A stretch of 55,021 bases of DNA from NCBI GenBank assembly GCA_007124095.1, contig SLFU01000061.1:1-55021 (forward strand). The letters are read 5' to 3'. Both the position numbers and the translations under genes were made by a program. Position 1 is the stretch's first letter. Each line of letters starts with the position of its first letter. Positions 5,490 to 48,716 of this stretch are shown piece after piece. Below the pieces are notes generated by a model that was given only the letters and a program-made list of their open reading frames with translations, was not told the DNA's origin and searched no databases. The stretch is from Gemmatimonadota bacterium. Its GTDB lineage: Bacteria; Gemmatimonadota; Gemmatimonadetes; Longimicrobiales; Gaopeijiaceae.

Positions 5490-7457
5490 GTGGGCTTCCT
5501 CTCCCCTCTCCTCCTCCTCGGGCTCGCGGCCCTTGCGATCCCGGTCGTCCTGCACCTGATGAAGAGACGGGAAGGTCGGACCGTCGTCTTTCCCGCGCTC
5601 CGCTACCTCACCCGCACGACCCGCGAGCACGCCCGGATCATCCGCCTTCGGCAGATCCTTCTCCTGGCCCTCCGGATGGCGGCCATCCTCCTCCTCGTGC
5701 TCGCCGGGGCCCGTCTGGTGCTTCCACTCGGGGGAGCCGACGCTCCGCCGGCCGGACTCGCGCTGGTCGTGGACAATGGGCTCTCCTCCGGAGCGGTGAT
5801 CGGGGAAGGGCGCGTCCTGGACTCCCTCGTGGCTCGGGGAGAAGCGGCACTCGAGCGAGCGGGCCCCCGGGACCGGATCTGGGTCATCCCCGCCGGGGAA
5901 CCCTGGAGGGCCGTCGTCCCACTTTCTCCGGAGGAAGCGGGGCGAGCACTGGCGGAGCTGGCCCCGACCCACGTCACCCCGGACCTTTCCGCGGCGCTGG
6001 GGCGCGCTCGCTCCCTCCTCGAAGCCGGCGGACCGGAGCCCCGAGAGATCCTTCTCCTCTCGGACCTTCGACCCGAGTCCTTCCCCGCTCCGCCCCCCGA
6101 AGCCGTGGCCTTCGAGACACCGGTTCGGGTGGCCCCTCCCCCTCCGATTCCGGCCCCGAACCGCGGTGTGGGTGAGATCCAGGTCTCCGGAGGTCTCGCG
6201 CCCCGGGTAGGGGATCCCAGCGAGCTGCAAGTCCAACTGGAAGGAGAGGGGGTAGCAGGCGTCACCGTCCGGGTCTATCTCGACGACGAGTTCAGGGGGG
6301 CGGCCCGCACGGGTCCGGACGGGAGCGCGATCTTTCCCCTTCCCCCCTTCCCCGAGGGTTGGGTCCATGGAAGGGTGGAGGCTCCCCCGGACGACCTCCG
6401 CGGCGACGATGTCGGCTACTTCGCGTTTCCCGTCCTCCCCCCCCCGTCGGTCCGGATCGGAGCCTCGAGCTCCCCCTTTCTGATCGACGCCCTCGAAGTG
6501 CTGGCGGATGCGGGTCGAATCCGGCTCATGGAAGGAGACGGAGCGCAGGTTCAGTTCGCCGGCGATGCCTCTCCGGGGGAACTCGGTGCGGCGACCACGG
6601 TCGTGCTGATTCCCCCGGACGAGCCCGCCCTCCTCCCCTCGGCCAATCGGGTTCTGAATGAGCTGCTCCCGGGCTGGCGCCTCGAGGCCGAGCCGGAAGA
6701 GACAGAGGGGCTTCGGTATGTGGAAGGGGGAGCGCTGGGGAGCGTCGCTCAGGCCCGGATCGAGGTCCGGAGAGCCTACCGGATCGTGCCGAGCGACGCC
6801 GGCTCCGAACCGGTCGCGCTCCTCAACCTGTCCGACGGGTCCACCTGGCTGGCCGAGGCCCGGAACGACGGCCGAAGGGTCCTCATCCTGGGCTCCCCCC
6901 TCGCCCCCGAAGCCTCCGACCTTCCGACCTCGGCTGCGATGCTCCCCCTGATCGATCGATTGACCACCCCCGCCGGAGCGAGCTTATTCGAGGGAGAGCT
7001 CCCGGCCGGAACCCCGCTCACTCCGCCCGAGGAAGCCGCGGCGATCCGCCTTCCGGACGGAACCCGGAGGACGCCCGAAGGTATGTCGGCCTTCGTCGAG
7101 ACCGGGAGGGCAGGCATCGTTCAAGTGCTCGGACCCGACGACCAGATCCTTCGCCTCTATGCGATCAACTCTCGGACCCCGAGCTCCACCGGGTCCCTCA
7201 CGCCCGAAGGCCTGGTGGCGCGGCTGGGACCGGCGTGGGCCCGCGTGAGCGTGGAGGATCCCTGGCCAGGGGCGCTCCTGGCGGACCGTCGGGGGCGGGA
7301 GGTGTGGCGTCCCCTCCTCGTGGCGCTCCTCCTGGTCCTTCTCGCGGAGGGTTGGCTCGCGAGCTCGGGGGCGGCGCGGAGCCGGCCGTCCAGGATCCGC
7401 GGGGAACCGCGCCAGGAACCGAAGCATACGATGGCATCGCGAACGAGGGCTCCTTGA
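5490..7457 (+). CDS. BatA/aerotolerance-regulator N-terminal domain membrane protein; GTG start at 5490
   Basis: VGFLSPLLLLGLAALAIPVVLHLMKRREGRTVVFPALRYLTRTTREHARIIRLRQILLLALRMAAILLLVLAGARLVL. Confidence 0.8.
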   Translation: MGFLSPLLLLGLAALAIPVVLHLMKRREGRTVVFPALRYLTRTTREHARIIRLRQILLLALRMAAILLLVLAGARLVLPLGGADAPPAGLALVVDNGLSSGAVIGEGRVLDSLVARGEAALERAGPRDRIWVIPAGEPWRAVVPLSPEEAGRALAELAPTHVTPDLSAALGRARSLLEAGGPEPREILLLSDLRPESFPAPPPEAVAFETPVRVAPPPPIPAPNRGVGEIQVSGGLAPRVGDPSELQVQLEGEGVAGVTVRVYLDDEFRGAARTGPDGSAIFPLPPFPEGWVHGRVEAPPDDLRGDDVGYFAFPVLPPPSVRIGASSSPFLIDALEVLADAGRIRLMEGDGAQVQFAGDASPGELGAATTVVLIPPDEPALLPSANRVLNELLPGWRLEAEPEETEGLRYVEGGALGSVAQARIEVRRAYRIVPSDAGSEPVALLNLSDGSTWLAEARNDGRRVLILGSPLAPEASDLPTSAAMLPLIDRLTTPAGASLFEGELPAGTPLTPPEEAAAIRLPDGTRRTPEGMSAFVETGRAGIVQVLGPDDQILRLYAINSRTPSSTGSLTPEGLVARLGPAWARVSVEDPWPGALLADRRGREVWRPLLVALLLVLLAEGWLASSGAARSRPSRIRGEPRQEPKHTMASRTRAP

Positions 7458-7507
7458 AATCGGGAGCCTCTCCGGACCCTCCACACCCCTCGGACCAGAT
7501 CGTACCC

Positions 7508-10500
7508 GTGCCCACCCGACACCATCCCGTCCTCGAGTCCCTCCTCTCCACTCCACTCCTGGAGGAGCTGCAGGCGCGGCTCCCCGAGCGGGGACAAGGC
7601 CTGACCGTGGGTGGCAACGTCGGGTCAGCCGGCTCGGCGTTGGCGGCCGCATTGCACCAGGTGCATCCGAAGCGGATCTTCGTGGCCGTCGCCCGGGACC
7701 CGGATCAGGCCGCCCGGATCGAGGCTGACCTCGAGTCACTCCTTGGAGGAGGCGTTCCGCACCTCTTTCCCCAGGACGAGACCCGGTTCTATTCCGACGA
7801 GGAGCCCGACCCCCGCATCGCTGGCCTCAGGGTGGAGGCGGTCGAGGCCCTCCTCGGCGGCCGGAGTCGGATCTTCGTGACGACGACCAGGGCGCTGCAG
7901 GAGCGGATGGGGATGCCCGACCGGCTCGCCCAGTTGAGACTCGAGCTGGAGGTGGGCGACGAGATCGGCTTCTCCCTTCTCGTCGAGGAGCTCGAGGCCC
8001 TGGGATATCGCAGGGCTCCCCTGGTCCAGGAGGCCGGGGAGTTCGCGGTCCGGGGGGGGCTGGTGGACGTGTTTTCCCTCGGGATCCCCGATCCGGTCCG
8101 GATGGAGTTCTGGGGTGACGAGATCTCGTCGATTCGACCCTTCGAGGTGAGTGACCAGCGCTCCACCGGGGAGATCGAAGCCGTCCACATCCTTCCCGCG
8201 GCCTTCCGGAAGACCAGCGACTCCGGCCGGACGGTGAGTCGCAGCTTTCTCGAGGTCCTCCCGCTCGACACCGTCGTGCTGGGTTTCGGGGGAGCTCACT
8301 GGGAGCACGCGTTCCAGCGGAACTGGTCTCGAGCGTGGACCCTGCGGGCCGAGCGGGCAGAGGAGCAGGCGGACCTTCCACCGCCCGAGGAGATCCTCCT
8401 CCCAGCGGACGAGGCGCTCGAGGGAATGAGGGGCCGACCACTCCTCCGGATCCTGGAGGATCCGGACCAGGAGTGGTCCCTCGGCGTCACCACCCCACCG
8501 CCCTTCGAGCGCAACATGGCCCGCCTCTCCGCGTTCCTGCGGGAGGAGGCAGCGCGCGGCGCCCGCACCCTGGTCCTGTGCGACAACGAAGGCCAGGTCG
8601 AGCGACTCGAGGAGCTCCTGTCCGATTCCTTCGGTGGCCGGCCCCCTCCCGGGGTGCAGGTGGGAGTCGGCAGCGTCGAAGCCGGATTCCGGATCGCCTC
8701 CGATCCCCCTCTGAACGTCCTGACGGACCATGAGATCTTCCAGAGGAGCCGCCGGATCCGGTCGGGCAGACGGTTCCAGGGAGCCATGGCCCTCGAGAGC
8801 GTGGCGCAGCTCTCTCCGGGAGACTACGTGGTTCATATGGACCATGGAATCGGGCGCTTCCACGGGCTGGAGAGGATCGAAGTGGGCGGTGAGGACCTCG
8901 AGGTGCTGGCCATCGAGTACACGGACCAGGAGATCCTGAGGGTCCCCGTCTACCGTCTGGACCTCGTCGAGCGCTGGGTCGGCCCGAGCGACGACGCGGA
9001 GCCGCCCTCGGTCCATCGCATCGGAGGGAAACGCTGGAAGACCCTCAAGCGGAAGACCGAGGAAGCGGTCGAACGAATGACCCAGGAGCTGCTCGAGCTC
9101 TACGCCGAGCGGGAGCTGGCCGAGGGCTTTTCCTTCTCCCCGGACTCGAAGTGGCAGAAGGAGATGGAGGCGGCCTTTCTCTACGAGGACACGCCGGACC
9201 AGCGGAGGGCGACCGAAGAGGTCAAGAAAGACATGGAATCCCCCCGTCCCATGGATCGGCTCGTTTGCGGCGACGTCGGATTCGGGAAGACCGAGGTGGC
9301 GATCCGAGCCGCATTCAAGGCGATCCAGGATGGGAAACAGGTAGCCGTTCTCGCTCCCACTACGATCCTCGTGGAGCAGCACGGTCGAACCTTCGGCGAA
9401 CGGTTGGCCGATTTTCCGGTCCGGATCGAGGCGCTTTCACGCTTCAGGACGGCCCGGGAGCAGGAAGAGATCCGCCTCGCTCTGGAACGCGGGGAGGTGG
9501 ATCTGGTCATCGGCACTCACCGACTCCTTTCGGAGGACATCCGGTTCCGGGAGCTCGGTCTCCTGATCGTCGATGAGGAACAACGGTTTGGTGTGCGGCA
9601 CAAAGAGCGCCTGAAGCAGCTGAGGGCTTCGGTGGATGTCCTCACCCTGACCGCCACTCCGATCCCCCGCACCCTTCAGCTCTCCCTCGCGGGGGTCCGG
9701 AATCTCTCCCTGATCCGCACTCCCCCTCGGGACCGGCTGGCGGTGATCACTCAGTCCATACCATGGAGCGAAGGGCTTCTCTCGGAAGTCATCGGACGCG
9801 AATTGGATCGAGGGGGTCAGGTGTTCTTTCTCCACAATCGGGTCGATACGATCCACAATGTCGCGGCCCGCGTAGAGAGGATGGCTCCCGAGGCGCGTGT
9901 CGGGGTGGCCCACGGCCAGATGCAGGCCAGACCGCTGGACGAGGTGATGCATGCCTTCATCCACGGAGAGCTGGATGTGCTGGTGTGCTCGTCGATCATC
10001 GAGAATGGGCTGGACGTACCAAACGCGAACACCCTGATCGTGGACCAGGCGGATCGGTTCGGCCTCGCGCAGCTCTATCAAATCCGTGGAAGGGTGGGGA
10101 GGTCCGACCGCCGCGCATACTGCTATCTCGTCGTGCCTGATCGAATGACTCCGGACGCACGCCAGCGAATTCAGGTCCTGGAGCGCTATACCGATCTCGG
10201 GAGCGGATACGAAGTCGCTCTGAGGGACCTGGAGATCCGGGGCGCCGGGCACCTGCTCGGATCGGATCAGTCCGGGTTCGCCCAGGCCGTGGGAATGGAC
10301 ACCTACCTTCGCTTACTCGAGAGCGCGGTACGGCGACTCCGCCGAGGGCCGGGCGTGAGCGAAGCCTTCCCCGAGCCCGAGGTGGTCCTTCCCGGATCCG
10401 CCTACATCCCCGATAATTATGTGTCCGACTCGGGTCAGAAGCTGCACCTCTACCGTCGCCTCTCCAAGCTGGAGGACCGGGGGGAGGTCGAACGCCTTCG

Positions 10501-10825
10501 AGAGGAGATGACGGATCGGTACGGCCCGATCCCGGAAGAGGTGGAGCGTCTCGTGGACGCCCACCTCCTTCGCCTTTTGGGAAGGGACCTGGGCATCGAA
10601 CGGGTATTCGTCCGGGGACGGGATGCACGGTTGACCTTCCGGGCAGCGGCGAACCCCAGGATGACCGCGCTCGAGGCGCCCTTCCGGGACCGCCAGATCG
10701 AAGTCACCATCAAGAGGATGGCTCCCCTCGCCCTTGCCCTCAAGCAGGTCGGGACCGAGCCACTCACCCGCACGCTGATCCGGGCCCTCGACCGGCTGGT
10801 TGGGGAGGAGGCCCGAGCCGCATGA
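7508..10825 (+). CDS. mfd: Transcription-repair coupling factor Mfd (start uncertain; GTG 7508 proposed)
   Basis: GDYVVHMDHGIGRFHGLERI (RNAP-interacting domain), DRLVCGDVGFGKTEVAIRAAFKA, TLTATPIPRTLQLSLAGVRNLSLI, TRCF C-terminal domain. Confidence 0.97.
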   Translation: MPTRHHPVLESLLSTPLLEELQARLPERGQGLTVGGNVGSAGSALAAALHQVHPKRIFVAVARDPDQAARIEADLESLLGGGVPHLFPQDETRFYSDEEPDPRIAGLRVEAVEALLGGRSRIFVTTTRALQERMGMPDRLAQLRLELEVGDEIGFSLLVEELEALGYRRAPLVQEAGEFAVRGGLVDVFSLGIPDPVRMEFWGDEISSIRPFEVSDQRSTGEIEAVHILPAAFRKTSDSGRTVSRSFLEVLPLDTVVLGFGGAHWEHAFQRNWSRAWTLRAERAEEQADLPPPEEILLPADEALEGMRGRPLLRILEDPDQEWSLGVTTPPPFERNMARLSAFLREEAARGARTLVLCDNEGQVERLEELLSDSFGGRPPPGVQVGVGSVEAGFRIASDPPLNVLTDHEIFQRSRRIRSGRRFQGAMALESVAQLSPGDYVVHMDHGIGRFHGLERIEVGGEDLEVLAIEYTDQEILRVPVYRLDLVERWVGPSDDAEPPSVHRIGGKRWKTLKRKTEEAVERMTQELLELYAERELAEGFSFSPDSKWQKEMEAAFLYEDTPDQRRATEEVKKDMESPRPMDRLVCGDVGFGKTEVAIRAAFKAIQDGKQVAVLAPTTILVEQHGRTFGERLADFPVRIEALSRFRTAREQEEIRLALERGEVDLVIGTHRLLSEDIRFRELGLLIVDEEQRFGVRHKERLKQLRASVDVLTLTATPIPRTLQLSLAGVRNLSLIRTPPRDRLAVITQSIPWSEGLLSEVIGRELDRGGQVFFLHNRVDTIHNVAARVERMAPEARVGVAHGQMQARPLDEVMHAFIHGELDVLVCSSIIENGLDVPNANTLIVDQADRFGLAQLYQIRGRVGRSDRRAYCYLVVPDRMTPDARQRIQVLERYTDLGSGYEVALRDLEIRGAGHLLGSDQSGFAQAVGMDTYLRLLESAVRRLRRGPGVSEAFPEPEVVLPGSAYIPDNYVSDSGQKLHLYRRLSKLEDRGEVERLREEMTDRYGPIPEEVERLVDAHLLRLLGRDLGIERVFVRGRDARLTFRAAANPRMTALEAPFRDRQIEVTIKRMAPLALALKQVGTEPLTRTLIRALDRLVGEEARAA

Positions 10826-37811: not shown

Positions 37812-39767
37812 CTAAGAGCGGGTCCTGCGGCTCCTGCGGGGACGTTCCCCCGCAGCCCCTCCCGTGGACGCCTCCACTCCAGAGGATGCCTCGACCCGGG
37901 TGTCCGAGTCGGGAGCAGAGTCCCTGCCGCTCTCCTCCGATTCCAGATGGCGCTTTCGGCGTCGCTCGAAATCGGACACCCACGCCTCCATGAACTTTTC
38001 GTAGCGGGAGGGGGTGAGGACCTCCTTCGCCTTCGCGGGATCCTGCTGAAGCACTGTGAAGAGGTCGTCGCCGAAGGCATCCACCAAGGCCTCGGCAGTC
38101 TTCTGTCCCACTCCGCGATAGGAGTTGGAGAGATACTGGACCACGCTCTCCCTTCCCCGCGGAAGCTGCAGCTTCTCGGGGTCGATCGCTCCCTCTTTGG
38201 CCGGACTCTTGGCCTCCGGAGGCTGCACCGGGGCGGGCCCATCGTCCGATGGAGCGGGCTTCGAAGCTCCGGAGGAGCGGCTTGCCACTACCTGGCCCTT
38301 GAAGAGAGGGGGCGGCTCCGTGCCGCTTCCCCGTCGGCCCCCGGCCCGCCGCGGGTGCAAGCGCCCGGGCACCAAGTCCCCTGCCCCCGTCTTGGATGGG
38401 GACTTGGAAGGAACCTCCCTCTTCGGCGCGGGTGCTTCCGGCTCCGGCTTCGGTTGAGTCGTCCGCGGTAGCGGCTTCTCCGCCTCCGGCTTGTCCGGCT
38501 TCGGGGTGGCGGCTTCCGACTTTGCAGCCCCCACCTTCGCACCCTCGTCCCGCAGGGATTCACGTGCCCCCAACGCCACCTGGTAGTTCCCACCGTCACC
38601 CTTTCGCAGGTCCACGATCTCGTGATCGTGCGCCTGCCGCAGGAACCGAGAGAACTTCGAGAAGCCCAACTCGGCTTCGTCGAACCCGCGCTCCAGGGCA
38701 AGCATCCTCCGCTTTACATCGGAGTCCCGCACGGAATCGGAGTCCTGATCCTCCAACAGATCGTCGATCGCCCTTCGGAGCAACCGATAAGCGGCCCCCA
38801 GCTTCTCGGGCTCCGAAGTGGTCTTCGCGGGCCCCCCGGACGTCCCGGGCGAGGTGCCCACCTCCGCCGAACGTCCGCTCGCTTCCGGTGCCCGGGTCCG
38901 ATCGGGACGGGTGGTTCTCGGAGGGCTCGCGCGGCCTCGATCGCTCTTCGCCGGCTCCCTCCTCTCCTCCTTCTGCTCGCCCTTCGAGGAACGGGACGAG
39001 AGGATCTCATACTGCCCGTTCTCCATCTTCCTGATCCGAAGAAGGCCCTTGCCAGAGGCCTCGGAGAGGAATCTCGAGAACTTGCTGAAGCCCATCCCCT
39101 TTTCGTCGAATCGGCTATCGAGCTCCAGCATTACCTGCTTCAGTCGATCGGAACGCATAACGTCGTTCCGCTTCTCCATCTGCTCGACCGCCTTCTCCAC
39201 GAGGAGCCAGGGATCCCAGGAGCTGGCGCCGGAATCGTCACTCTTCCTGAGTCCCGACAGGGAAGTATAGGAGTAGTACTCGTCGCAGTTCTGGACGAGG
39301 ATGTCGGAGGATGACTCCTGGATCCCCACCCCGATCACATACTTCCCGTATTCCTTGAGCTTCAAGACGAGGGACGAAAAGTCCGAATCCCCGGTCAGGA
39401 GGATATAGGTCCCGATCTCAGGGCGGGTGAAGACGAGCTCAATACCATCGATCGCCATCCGGATGTCCGTCGCGTTCTTCTTGCTGCTCCCATACGCGGG
39501 AGCGAAGATCAGATCGATGGAGGCCTCGGAGAGGGGAACGATGTACTGCGGATAGCGCCGCCAGTCGGCGTACGCCCTTTGAACGGTCACCTTTCCCTTG
39601 ATGATGTCCGAGTCAAGGAGGCCCTTGAGCTCCTTCGACAGGTCGCTCCGCATCCCCATGGTGACGTTGTCGAAGTCGACCAGGAGGGCTGCGTTGGGGG
39701 CTTGGGTTGGATGACGGGGAGAACCGGCTCCCTCGATGTGGGGGGCCTTGGAAAATGGAATACTCAT
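37812..39767 (-). CDS. NYN-domain (LabA/DUF88-like) protein with two LOTUS/OST-HTH domains and C-terminal helix-hairpin-helix
   Basis: NYN: ALLVDFDNVTMG, KKNATDIRMAIDGIELVFTRPEIGTYILLTGDSDFSSLVLKLKEYGKYVIGVG; two copies of the RFDEKGMGFSKFSRFLSEA / GFDEAELGFSKFSRFLRQA module; HhH SYRGVGQKTAEALVDAFGDDLFTVLQQDP. Confidence 0.85.
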   Translation of the reverse strand: MSIPFSKAPHIEGAGSPRHPTQAPNAALLVDFDNVTMGMRSDLSKELKGLLDSDIIKGKVTVQRAYADWRRYPQYIVPLSEASIDLIFAPAYGSSKKNATDIRMAIDGIELVFTRPEIGTYILLTGDSDFSSLVLKLKEYGKYVIGVGIQESSSDILVQNCDEYYSYTSLSGLRKSDDSGASSWDPWLLVEKAVEQMEKRNDVMRSDRLKQVMLELDSRFDEKGMGFSKFSRFLSEASGKGLLRIRKMENGQYEILSSRSSKGEQKEERREPAKSDRGRASPPRTTRPDRTRAPEASGRSAEVGTSPGTSGGPAKTTSEPEKLGAAYRLLRRAIDDLLEDQDSDSVRDSDVKRRMLALERGFDEAELGFSKFSRFLRQAHDHEIVDLRKGDGGNYQVALGARESLRDEGAKVGAAKSEAATPKPDKPEAEKPLPRTTQPKPEPEAPAPKREVPSKSPSKTGAGDLVPGRLHPRRAGGRRGSGTEPPPLFKGQVVASRSSGASKPAPSDDGPAPVQPPEAKSPAKEGAIDPEKLQLPRGRESVVQYLSNSYRGVGQKTAEALVDAFGDDLFTVLQQDPAKAKEVLTPSRYEKFMEAWVSDFERRRKRHLESEESGRDSAPDSDTRVEASSGVEASTGGAAGERPRRSRRTRS

Positions 39768-44069: not shown

Positions 44070-45515
44070 TCAGTGCCAGGACCCGCGGCCCTGGCCCTCG
44101 GGGCAAGCGGCGCCCGGCTCCAGGTGGGTGTTGTAGTCCAGCTCCCGCCGCACGACGGGAAAGGCAATGTCGTCACCTCCACCGAGGCCGACTGCTTTCA
44201 CCGGGGGGAAGAGGTCGATCTCTACCGCCGGGTCGAGTCTCAGCCTCCGGGAGGTCGTGTGACGATCCCCGGTGAGCCAGAGCTCGCGGGCGCGCTCGGC
44301 CGCGACCGACTCGAGATCGGCCTCGAGGTCGCCGGTGAGCGAGATTTCCCCCAGCCGGTTCTCGGGATCCGGGAGCTCCACGCCCCAGTGAACCGAGGCC
44401 CTCGAGCTGTAGTCTGAGCGCAGGTCGTTGATGAGGGATTCGGCCTCCTCGATCCGCCCTCCCCGAACCGCCGCCTCGGCCTCGATCAGGCGGGCCTCCA
44501 CACCCGAGGCCATCAAGACCCGGCGCTCCGGGCGGTCGTAGAGCTTCTGGAGGTTCACCGGGATGGAACTGTTGAACGCCGTCAGCCCCGGGTGGTCCGG
44601 GAGAAGCAGATTCAGCTCCACGAACTGATCGAAGTGCGCCCACCGCTCGTTCCCTCGCGTCGCAATCGTCCCGTCTCCCACCGACCATCGGATCCTCTCG
44701 GTATCTCCCCAGGTCAGCGCGTATAGCTTGTTGAACTGGGACGGATCGTTGGCAGAGTACTCGGCCCATCGTACGAAGCCTCTCGGCACCTGGGCAGCGA
44801 GCGAAGCGGCCTCCTCGAAGGCGCCCAGCCAGAGATGTGCCCGCGCTTGGCCCACGAGCGCGGCGGTGCGGATCTCCGTGAAGCCGTGGGTAGATCCAAG
44901 CTCCTCGGCTTCTTCGAGGTGCTCGAGCGCGTCGACGAGTCGCTCATCGGGGAGGCGGGGGGACGTCTCCGGATCGCGCTCCGGGCCGGGGGCGCCGGAG
45001 AGGATGCTCCAGCAGTACAGCTCGGCCAACCAGAGACGGGCATAGCCACCGTATAGACGGGCAAGTGCAATCCCCTCGTTTAGTTCGTCCCCGTGGTCCT
45101 GGAAATCGGGATCCTCCAGCCGGGCTCTGAAGAGGAACGCGGTGGTGTCGGCCTGGAAGCGGGCCTGGTGGAGCGGTGTGTACATCTCCTGGGTGAGGGT
45201 CGCGTTGCCCGGGTCGATACGGCGGAGGTCGACCTCGATTCGGGTGGGGAAGTTGTCCGCCGCGATCATCTCGTCGGTGAGGAGCGCGGAGTACCGGACC
45301 AGCCCGTCAACCGCGACATGGTAGTCCCCCACCATCCCGCTGACGATGGTGGGAATGGCTGCCGGGCCGGCCCGATCGAGGTCCTCGGGAACGAGAATCC
45401 CGGAGTCGTCTACGTCCAGGATTCCGGCGTCGCAACCGAGGAGGAGGAAAGGACCCCACACGATCCCGATCTGCAGGACGTGCCTCCGGAACCGGGCAAT
45501 GAGCCTATCCTTCAT
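44070..45515 (-). CDS. RagB/SusD-like outer-membrane lipoprotein
   Basis: GPFLLLGCDAGILDVDD lipobox; ARLYGGYARLWLAELYC; QARAHLWLGAFEEAASLAAQVP; directly downstream of SusC-like gene. Confidence 0.82.
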   Translation of the reverse strand: MKDRLIARFRRHVLQIGIVWGPFLLLGCDAGILDVDDSGILVPEDLDRAGPAAIPTIVSGMVGDYHVAVDGLVRYSALLTDEMIAADNFPTRIEVDLRRIDPGNATLTQEMYTPLHQARFQADTTAFLFRARLEDPDFQDHGDELNEGIALARLYGGYARLWLAELYCWSILSGAPGPERDPETSPRLPDERLVDALEHLEEAEELGSTHGFTEIRTAALVGQARAHLWLGAFEEAASLAAQVPRGFVRWAEYSANDPSQFNKLYALTWGDTERIRWSVGDGTIATRGNERWAHFDQFVELNLLLPDHPGLTAFNSSIPVNLQKLYDRPERRVLMASGVEARLIEAEAAVRGGRIEEAESLINDLRSDYSSRASVHWGVELPDPENRLGEISLTGDLEADLESVAAERARELWLTGDRHTTSRRLRLDPAVEIDLFPPVKAVGLGGGDDIAFPVVRRELDYNTHLEPGAACPEGQGRGSWH

Positions 45516-45656
45516 CTCTGGCAACCTCCCTTCTTCTCGGTGATTGTCTCCCGCTCGAAGCTCCCACCGACCCGTCCATCGCCTGGACTGCAGCCGGGTG
45601 AAACCCGCTCCCTGAGCGGCGGCAGGGTTCATGGCCGTGGGAATTGGGAGCCGGCA

Positions 45657-48600
45657 TCAGAAGGTGATGGCCAACCGGCCCGTGACGCGTTTCCCGGGAG
45701 GAAGCGTCAGGAACTCCGACCGGACAGCCTGGGCGCCGCCCGCGAAATTCACCTCAGGGTCCACCCCCGAATAGCCGGTGAAAAGGGCCAGGTTCTCGCC
45801 CACGAGAGTGAAGCTTCCACGAGTGCCTCCCAGGCTCTCGAGCCAGCGCGCAGGAAGCTCAATGCGCGCGGAAACCGTGCGAAGCCTGGCGAAGTCCGCA
45901 TCCTCCATCCATGGGGCGAAGTGGATTCGGCTCGCGGCGACCTGCTTGATCCTGGCCCGGTCTGTGGACCCCCCGTCCGCCTCGGTCTCGAAGATCTCGG
46001 GGCACGTGCCCCCATACCGCCCCCCCCCGAGGAATCCACATGCGAACTCCTGAGTGCTGTTGAAGAGCTGGTGACCGCCCGCGAACCGGAGGTCGGCGTG
46101 GAGCGTGACTCGGCCGAGGAGTTCCAAGGTAGTCGAGAGGGAACCCTCGAACTCGGGCGTCGGATGGCCGATGAAGACCGCTTCCTCAGTGGACTCGACG
46201 TCCCCGTCCTCTCCGATGAAATAGTCCACACTGAAATAGGACCCGAAGGGGTACCCTTCCTGATGGCGCTGTGCGACCCCGTCGATCCCCATGAAGATGG
46301 GCTCCTCCAGGCGGGTAATCTTTCCCTTGCTCTTCCCCGCATTCAGCCGCCAATCCCATCGCACGTCCGGCCGACTGACCGCCACGGCGCTCAGGCCCAG
46401 TTCCAGACCACGGTTCCTGGCCTCTCCAATGTTCGTGTACATCTGCGAGGGGAAACCGGTGGAGGGAGCGAGAAAGCGGGTGGTGATCGCATCCTGCGTC
46501 ACCTGCCGGTACCAGGTGAAGTCCACGCCGAGTCGTCCGCCCACGGCATCTGCCTCGAACCCCAGCTCGACCTCGCGTCCCCGCTCGGGCCGAAGGTCCG
46601 GGTTCCCGGGCTGATCCAGGGAGATGCCCGCACGATCCTCGCCCCTGAACGTCACCCGCTCCGCACTCAGCAGCTGAAGGCTGGCGAAGGCGGAGGGCTG
46701 CTGCCCCGACTCCCCCCAAGCCCCCCTGAGGCGGAAGGAATCGAACTGGGATCCCGGGAACCACTCCTCCTCGCTTATCACATAGGAGGCCATCGCACGG
46801 GGGTAGGCCTCACGACCCAGGTTCTTTCCGAAGGCCGAACTCTCGTCGATGCGAACCGCCGGGGTCACGAAGATGCGGTCCCGAAACGCCACCTGCTGCT
46901 GGACGAAGACCCCCATGATCCGGGTCTCGCTGATGACCTCCGATCCCTCGGTACGGACCGCGTTCCCGACGGACTTGGTCCCGGAGGGAAGTGTCCGCCC
47001 GACCGATCCCGTGGCTTCCACCTTGTGCGCGAAGAACTGCCCTCCGACGCTGGTCGTAGACCGGAGCTCCGGGGTGATCTCGTGCGTCGCGCTGATCGTT
47101 CCATCGAGGGTCACGTTCCGGTGGACGGCGTCCTCGGTTTCTCGGAACCCCGCGGAAAGATCTCCGAACGGGGCTGCGGGGTCCACAGGGAAGAAGGTCC
47201 GAGTCTGGGTGGAGAATTGGTCGTAGCCCACCGTACCGGAGGCCTCGATGACATCGATCGGCCGGAAGTTGACCGTGGCGCTCCCGGTGAACCGCTCGAT
47301 CTTCTGGCCGCGTTCGATCGTGGCGGCATCCTCGAAGGTCTGGCCACCTGAGAACGGGTTCCCGGGGCAACCTTCCGTGCCCAGGGGGACGCCGAAAGCC
47401 CTCGACACTTCGAAATCGAGGGGACAGGTCCGGATCCCCGGGTCACCCGTAGTCGGGTCGGTCCTCACCAGCGGCATCAGCCAGGGACTCCCCATAAGCG
47501 CCGCTCCCAGGAACCCGAAACCGCTCAGATCGTTTTCGGGCAGCGCGAGGCTGTGGCTCCCAAGCCCGGTGGAGAGCGAGATGTCCACCCGATCGGACGG
47601 GTGGATATTGAAATTTCCGCGCACGTTTCGTCGCGTCATCTCGTTGTTCGGGAGACTCCCTTCACGGTGCCCGAGGGTGGTGGAGAGGTAGTAGGTGACG
47701 CCCTCGATCCCTCCTCTGAAGGAGACCCCGTAGCTCTGCTCCAGCCCTGTCCTCCACGGGTCCAGATCGGTGCCGTCCTGCGTAAAGAGGTTCATCCGGT
47801 AGAGTGTGTCCGGCGCCTGCTCGCCGAAGAATGCGCGGGGGTTGAATACGCGGTCCGGCCAGTCGGTGTCGTCCCAGTTCGCCCCGAGCTCGGAGCGAAA
47901 GGTCCACTCGTTCATCCCCGTCCGACCCCGCTTTGTCGTGATCCGGATCACTCCGGCCGCGGCTTCGGTGCCGTAGAGCGTAGCTGCTGACGGACCCTTC
48001 ACGATCTCGACCGCCTCGATGTCGTCGAGGCTCAGGTCGTCCAGCCGGCTGATCGTCTGGCCCCCGACACTCGGACCAGAGTCCAATGTGTTCGAGACGC
48101 GGGCGCCGTCGACGTAGATAAGGGGCGTGTTGCTAAGGCTGATCGAGCCGTGGCCCCGGATCGTGATCGACGACGCGGCCCCGACCGTACCCGAGCTCTG
48201 CAAGACCTGAACCCCGGGGGCTCGGCCCTGGAGGAGGGTCGAGAGACTTGGCGGAGAGGCCATCTCCACCTCACGCGAGGCTCGAATCGTGCTCGCCGAG
48301 TTTCCCAGCTCCCGCCGCCTTTGGACACCCAGCGCCGTCACGACGAGCCCGTCGAGGGCCAGCACCGAGACTTCCAGCTCCACGTTCAGCTCAAGAGTGA
48401 GACCGGCCTCAATTTCCACCGATCGAACCATCGGAGCGTAACCCAGGCGCTGGATCCGGATCTCCCCCGGACCGACCGGAACACCCTCGATGCGGTAAGC
48501 CCCTTCTGCGTCGGAAAGGGCCCCCAGATCGGTCCCGGCAACCGTCACCTGGGCGGAGGAAACGGGTTCGTGCGTCATCGCCTCGAGAACCGTTCCGGAA

Positions 48601-48716
48601 ACCGTGCCGGTCTGCTGCGCTTCGAGGTGCTGCGGCACCTGAAAGACCCCGAGAACGAGGAACACACCGGCCACAAGCCGTCGTCCCCGTCGGTCCACCT
48701 GGGCACTCATTTTCAT
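45657..48716 (-). CDS. SusC/RagA-family TonB-linked outer-membrane receptor
   Basis: Carboxypeptidase-like N-terminal domain VSGTVLEAMTHEPVSSAQVTVAGTDLGALSDAEGAYRIEGVP; plug LSLDDIEAVEIVKGPSAATLYGTEAAAGVIRITTKRGR; C-terminal beta barrel. Confidence 0.95.
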   Translation of the reverse strand: MKMSAQVDRRGRRLVAGVFLVLGVFQVPQHLEAQQTGTVSGTVLEAMTHEPVSSAQVTVAGTDLGALSDAEGAYRIEGVPVGPGEIRIQRLGYAPMVRSVEIEAGLTLELNVELEVSVLALDGLVVTALGVQRRRELGNSASTIRASREVEMASPPSLSTLLQGRAPGVQVLQSSGTVGAASSITIRGHGSISLSNTPLIYVDGARVSNTLDSGPSVGGQTISRLDDLSLDDIEAVEIVKGPSAATLYGTEAAAGVIRITTKRGRTGMNEWTFRSELGANWDDTDWPDRVFNPRAFFGEQAPDTLYRMNLFTQDGTDLDPWRTGLEQSYGVSFRGGIEGVTYYLSTTLGHREGSLPNNEMTRRNVRGNFNIHPSDRVDISLSTGLGSHSLALPENDLSGFGFLGAALMGSPWLMPLVRTDPTTGDPGIRTCPLDFEVSRAFGVPLGTEGCPGNPFSGGQTFEDAATIERGQKIERFTGSATVNFRPIDVIEASGTVGYDQFSTQTRTFFPVDPAAPFGDLSAGFRETEDAVHRNVTLDGTISATHEITPELRSTTSVGGQFFAHKVEATGSVGRTLPSGTKSVGNAVRTEGSEVISETRIMGVFVQQQVAFRDRIFVTPAVRIDESSAFGKNLGREAYPRAMASYVISEEEWFPGSQFDSFRLRGAWGESGQQPSAFASLQLLSAERVTFRGEDRAGISLDQPGNPDLRPERGREVELGFEADAVGGRLGVDFTWYRQVTQDAITTRFLAPSTGFPSQMYTNIGEARNRGLELGLSAVAVSRPDVRWDWRLNAGKSKGKITRLEEPIFMGIDGVAQRHQEGYPFGSYFSVDYFIGEDGDVESTEEAVFIGHPTPEFEGSLSTTLELLGRVTLHADLRFAGGHQLFNSTQEFACGFLGGGRYGGTCPEIFETEADGGSTDRARIKQVAASRIHFAPWMEDADFARLRTVSARIELPARWLESLGGTRGSFTLVGENLALFTGYSGVDPEVNFAGGAQAVRSEFLTLPPGKRVTGRLAITF

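Follow-up and report, generated by a model that had tools for sequence, protein, structure and literature searches.

The window analyzed here comprises positions 1 to 55,021 of contig SLFU01000061.1 of a Gemmatimonadota bacterium, a stretch of 55,021 nucleotides. One of its genes encodes a predicted NYN nuclease with two LOTUS (OST-HTH) domains and a C-terminal helix-hairpin-helix (HhH) module of the type found in the DNA helicase RecD2. The NYN-LOTUS-LOTUS core of the protein is known: bacterial OST-HTH domains fused to DUF88/LK-nuclease domains were described as predicted RNases in 2010 (Anantharaman, Zhang, and Aravind; PMC2848206). The initial annotation of this DNA, which singled the gene out for an “undescribed activity,” was therefore overstated, since that description already covers bacterial NYN proteins with one or two OST-HTH domains.

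Gene and domain architecture

The minus strand of positions 37812-39767 reads as 651 aa plus a stop codon from an ATG at 39767, and the plus strand of the same interval is interrupted by stops. These are the coordinates that had been proposed, with the strand left unstated, and every motif quoted for the product is present in the 651 aa. The gene gave a single match in its own genome and has a homolog in 39/39 genomes of the window's order, by which a chance or shadow ORF was rejected. The features of the locus are collected in Table 1.

Table 1. Coordinates of the NYN-LOTUS gene, its domains, and the adjacent glycosylase gene in the window
Feature	Residues	Position	Strand	Remarks
CDS, NYN-LOTUS-LOTUS-HhH protein	651 aa	37812..39767	-	stop codon 37812-37814; frame open upstream to 39776
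NYN / LK-nuclease (DUF88) domain	26-166	39270..39692	-	Pfam PF01936, E=9.8e-24
LOTUS/OST-HTH 1	184-257	38997..39218	-	AF2 pLDDT mid-90s, wHTH secondary structure
Disordered linker 1	258-319	38811..38996	-	pLDDT mostly <50; low conservation
LOTUS/OST-HTH 2	320-399	38571..38810	-	Pfam PF12872 at 330-395; AF2 pLDDT >90
Conserved short linear motif in disordered linker 2	472-494	38286..38354	-	consensus RLxPRxGxxRRx(5)PPPLLEGQ
RecD2-type HhH	533-613	37929..38171	-	TIGR01448; AF2 pLDDT about 96; first hairpin YRGVG 550-554, second degenerate
Disordered basic tail (..RPRRSRRTRS)	614-651	37815..37928	-	pLDDT <50 over most
MPG/AAG-type 3-methyladenine DNA glycosylase	227 aa	37089..37772	-	PF02245, 1.8e-61; 39 nt past the NYN stop codon

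The NYN/DUF88 domain is N-terminal in 49/49 homologs, and the PF01936 match to the window protein covers nearly the whole length of the profile. Residues D31, D33, D68, D85, D101, D107, D127, and D129 are invariant across the alignment of these homologs, as are large stretches of the domain besides the acidic residues; the profile match and the invariant residues together uphold the NYN core with acidic motifs of the initial annotation. A weak match to structure 2qip (VPA0982) and a match to the NCBIfam NYN family TIGR00288, scoring under its cut-off, were also obtained. In the AlphaFold2 model of the full protein, built on the alignment of 49 homologs, the NYN domain was not resolved, its low pLDDT probably reflecting the near-invariance of the alignment there, and the assignment of the NYN fold thus rests on sequence profiles. 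The protein has a conserved putative acidic nuclease site, whose metal-site geometry the model does not give reliably.

OST-HTH was matched in 49/49 homologs, and in the window protein PF12872 matched two stretches (E=1.1e-9). When LOTUS1 was aligned with LOTUS2, the score stood at z=12 over shuffles, indicating that the modules are related. Both LOTUS modules and the C-terminal module were modeled by AlphaFold2 with pLDDT in the nineties, and the linkers and tail were modeled as disordered. A Foldseek search with the full model returned the TDRD7 LOTUS domain 3rco (TM by target 0.78) and the bacterial LOTUS structures 2kpm and 2kzv, at E-values of at least 0.025 and among many other winged helices. 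The two related LOTUS modules and the low-complexity linkers of the initial annotation are thus all recovered, from Pfam, the model, and the LOTUS structures retrieved. In some homologs lacking the HhH (L133, L134, L135, and L137 of families f4 and f5), LOTUS2 is strongly diverged as well, as if decaying alongside the HhH. In family f3, the protein of L161 and L162 is much longer (about 1020-1055 aa), and its low-complexity linkers are expanded.

The second linker holds a short motif whose columns are 50-95% conserved within a surrounding stretch of no conservation and low pLDDT. Lying between LOTUS2 and the HhH, it is a possible protein-binding site. A similar Arg-Gly/hydrophobic motif seems to persist in homologs without the HhH. 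The Arg-rich end of the basic tail is about 55-70% conserved.

The HhH module and its history

The C-terminal module has a definite relative. In NCBIfam, positions 67-135 of TIGR01448 (RecD2) align with residues 534-599 of the window protein (E=3.8e-8), and the same match was obtained in 34/34 homologs, the C-terminal 65-80 residues of every homolog tested matching about positions 67-136 of this SF1B helicase. The resemblance to the N-terminal HhH of RecD2 was thus rightly called by the initial annotation, and a mis-called domain was rejected on the agreement of every homolog tested, though Foldseek alone was not convincing: with the module alone it gave no significant match, and flap endonucleases, PolX, Hef, RecD2, and RuvA were among the non-significant ones. 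A profile search of the PDB with the module retrieved XPF (4e-5) and Topo V, with uS13m as a weak match. By profile, the HhH is closest to enzymes of DNA, namely RecD2, XPF, Topo V, and RuvA, and three RecD2 helicases of the sister class were found with the module's profile at 3e-15 to 9e-12.

Structure prediction of this segment had been named as a test that could refute the HhH, and it yielded a confident fold. Modeled alone, the module has a mean pLDDT of 90, with helices at positions 30-40, 46-66, 68-73, and 77-105 of the fragment. Both the model and an alignment with RecD2, in which L140, L142, and L144 are the only valid RecD2 sequences, show a canonical first hairpin with conserved GxG and a shortened second hairpin replaced by one long helix. 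Unlike RecD2, then, the window protein has lost the second hairpin (GxG) and has no helicase domain; its match takes in 67-135 of 713 positions and scores 32 bits against a cut-off of 500 bits. Since just one of its hairpins is canonical and its net charge is close to zero, the module may bind DNA weakly, or its binding target may be protein or RNA.

The distribution of the gene was surveyed in the class to which the window belongs, which consists of soil and water bacteria. The NYN-LOTUS gene is present in 74/75 sampled genomes of the class, and a genome search did not find it in the sister class. Relatives among public genome contigs belong to Gemmatimonadota, with Longimicrobiales and Gemmatimonadales bins among them. 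The protein in its usual architecture is also encoded in L053, L072, and L082, three public bins whose Gammaproteobacteria titles are probably wrong. More distant are the NYN-LOTUS proteins of Burkholderiales replicons (Eleftheria, Caballeronia), with 30-33% identity over the NYN and adjacent region. They resemble the window protein in having a LOTUS-like segment and a low-complexity basic tail, whereas no HhH was seen in their sequence and the Eleftheria copy has no MPG glycosylase gene among its annotated neighbors.

Within the class, the HhH fusion is fixed in one order and one further family. Every copy in families f1, f2, f3, and f7 that extends to this region has the module, with the exception of L027 (f2), where unknown bases interrupt the copy. 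None of the copies examined in families f4 and f5 has it, and the f6 copy is truncated. In a tree of the NYN-LOTUS1 region, f4, f5, and f6 form a clade (100/98) nested among the HhH-bearing families, and f7 is outermost when the tree is rooted by the Burkholderiales proteins, an outgroup with a very long branch. Allowing for this long branch, the simplest reading is probably one gain of the HhH at the base and one loss in f4/f5/f6. A late gain in the window's order is less likely, because the outermost f7 is also HhH-bearing and a loss in f4/f5/f6 is more economical, the same long outgroup branch applying to this comparison.

RecD2 itself follows another pattern. The full helicase scores above cut-off in 5/6 genomes of the sister class, being split in the sixth, and is found in only 1/75 genomes of the class. 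In the window's own genome no RecD2 helicase was found, and the sole RecD2-like match is the HhH of the NYN-LOTUS protein, by which a mis-assembled piece of a local RecD2 gene was rejected as the source of the module. The RecD2-type HhH has thus persisted where the helicase itself is absent. Among the class genomes, G068 contains RecD2 along with further RecD2-like proteins; RecD2 is present in the sister class (G039-G048) and nearly absent from the class.

Pairing with a DNA glycosylase gene

The NYN-LOTUS gene is followed by a gene for an MPG-type glycosylase, which occurs once per genome among the class genomes having it. Of the 66 class genomes with MPG, 61 have it immediately downstream of NYN and in the same orientation; in a 62nd, the NYN and MPG matches overlap by 3 bases. 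The best NYN and MPG matches are on different contigs in the other four. A further C-terminal NYN piece adjoins MPG in G085 and G075, and MPG stands at a contig start in G073 and G078, consistent with a broken assembly. Counted by locus, the adjacency holds at 59/68 loci. No MPG without NYN was seen in the class genomes sampled, NYN without a detected MPG was observed in eight, and neither gene was found in the sister class. Retention of NYN in these eight genomes indicates that it is not dependent on MPG.

At the window the gene order is DHQ synthase, AMP-binding ligase, NYN-LOTUS, MPG glycosylase, NhaC antiporter, ETF beta, and ETF alpha, and this order is conserved throughout the window's order. 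In f4 and most of f5, only NYN and then MPG are left of it within about 8 kb, the ligase still lying upstream of NYN at three f5 loci. A larger operon with the AMP-ligase, DHQ synthase, NhaC, and ETF genes was therefore rejected in favor of ordinary synteny, as these neighbors are conserved in the order and mostly not in f4/f5. Furthermore, the NYN genes of f4 and f5 encode no HhH yet remain next to MPG, and the pairing therefore does not depend on this module. A single acquisition accounts for the co-occurrence of NYN and MPG; it does not account for this adjacency outliving the others.

Other genes of the window were inspected as well. A TonB-dependent SusC-like receptor (45657-48716, minus strand) is followed by an apparent SusD-like lipoprotein, for which Pfam gave no match at 1e-4 (44070-45632, minus strand); only a few of the 80 related loci have such a pair in the vicinity of NYN. 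A transcription-repair coupling factor (7235-10825, plus strand; Mfd-like, with UvrB_inter, CarD_TRCF_RID, DEAD, and TRCF) is about 27 kb away, and nothing points to its being linked with NYN.

Proposed function and its alternatives

From its sequence, the window protein is assigned to the bacterial LK-nuclease/OST-HTH (NYN-LOTUS) family, for which RNase activity is predicted. It shares with that family an N-terminal NYN domain followed by one or two OST-HTH domains, an arrangement widespread in bacteria; it differs in the fused RecD2-type HhH and in the MPG gene fixed downstream, no HhH being mentioned in the description of the family (PMC2848206). The animal germline protein MARF1/Limkain-b1 likewise combines a NYN nuclease with multiple LOTUS domains. 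Its LOTUS domains number eight, it also has two RRMs and decapping partners, and no HhH is described for it, whereas the window protein has two LOTUS domains and, by Pfam scan, no RRM, which argues against a MARF1 ortholog; bacterial and eukaryotic OST-HTH domains are separate families. The NYN domain of human MARF1 is a proven endoribonuclease that cuts single-stranded RNA (PMC6294520). RNase activity of the window protein is likely by analogy with the family (PMC2848206) and with human MARF1 (PMC6294520), and the “multivalent RNA-binding nuclease” of the initial annotation is a reasonable proposal on these same grounds. As for the LOTUS domains, those of several kingdoms, bacteria included, bind G-rich/G4 RNA according to work cited in PMC12247748, and RNA binding by the window protein would be expected from such family knowledge.

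We propose, at a probability of roughly 45%, that the protein is a chromosomal housekeeping NYN-LOTUS endoribonuclease that works beside MPG. Its NYN domain would be a metal-dependent core cutting single-strand RNA, and the two LOTUS winged helices, tethered by flexible linkers, would choose the RNA, probably structured or G-rich. The RecD2-type HhH, where present, would anchor the enzyme to the backbone of a nucleic acid, most likely of DNA, although docking on DNA is something we only infer. The two genes may be co-transcribed, and a two-gene unit would then supply both the nuclease and the sole MPG-type DNA glycosylase of the cell. It may clear RNA at or near alkylated or deaminated bases during repair, the setting in which MPG acts. 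A coupling of RNA cutting and base-excision repair is plausible, gene order alone being what suggests the cooperation of NYN with MPG. Two observations weigh against this cooperation, namely the eight class genomes that keep NYN with no MPG detected and a gene pairing that does not depend on the HhH.

A serious competitor, possible though somewhat doubtful, is a stand-alone nuclease of RNA decay or RNA maturation, in which the HhH is an extra RNA-backbone or protein-binding module and MPG a passenger kept by a shared promoter. The near-universal presence of the gene in the class, an architecture dominated by RNA-binding modules, and the persistence of NYN in eight genomes without MPG all fit such an enzyme, and HhH domains occur in RNA contexts too, uS13m being a weak profile match here. 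The 2010 survey observed no linkage of the bacterial LK-nuclease/OST-HTH proteins to known RNA-processing systems and suggested a standalone enzyme (PMC2848206). The stand-alone reading is opposed by the NYN-MPG pair, fixed across families whose other neighbors differ, and by the DNA enzymes that make up the best profile relatives of the HhH.

The proposal of a nuclease working beside MPG can also be carried further, to a dedicated two-gene system for DNA/RNA damage, and this we regard as unlikely. An RNA-selecting NYN-LOTUS nuclease, docked on DNA through a captured RecD2-type HhH and acting with MPG, would clear RNA at sites where MPG has bases to remove; examples are nascent transcripts, hybrids, and RNA that is alkylated or contains inosine.

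Action on RNA-DNA hybrids (R-loops) or transcription-associated structures, with LOTUS holding the RNA, the HhH holding the DNA, and NYN cutting the RNA, appears improbable. RNA modules and a DNA-type module do lie in one chain, the RecD2-type HhH sits in a DNA helicase, and a DNA-repair neighbor fits work on the chromosome; nevertheless, f4/f5 homologs do without the HhH, and NYN nucleases such as MARF1 cut single-stranded RNA. The class-wide pairing with MPG supports the link to DNA made by the initial annotation, and points to base-damage repair instead of the R-loops or Holliday junctions it had in mind.

NYN/PIN domains are known from toxins and defense proteins, and plasmid homologs of the window protein exist, but an anti-phage or toxin-type nuclease is very improbable given vertical, class-wide, single-copy inheritance and conserved synteny, and a defense or phage origin is without support from PADLOC models (no match for the window protein), IMG/VR (no confirmed relative), or phage records (only distant relatives).

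In the literature searched, which left out most subscription journals and preprints, we found no description of an HhH fusion of NYN-LOTUS or of a NYN-LOTUS/MPG pairing. That literature also yielded no biochemistry on any bacterial NYN-LOTUS protein and no account since 2010 of a pathway for these nucleases. The RecD2-type HhH fusion and the class-wide MPG pairing are thus possibly new as far as these sources go. If the two-gene damage system is real, RNA decay and base-excision repair would be coupled in bacteria in a way that the same sources do not describe. A natural experiment is offered by the sister families, which share the NYN-MPG gene pair and differ in whether the HhH is present. 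The fixed pairing with a base-excision-repair glycosylase provides a concrete genetic handle on bacterial NYN-LOTUS nucleases, and its main value lies in this testable genetic link.
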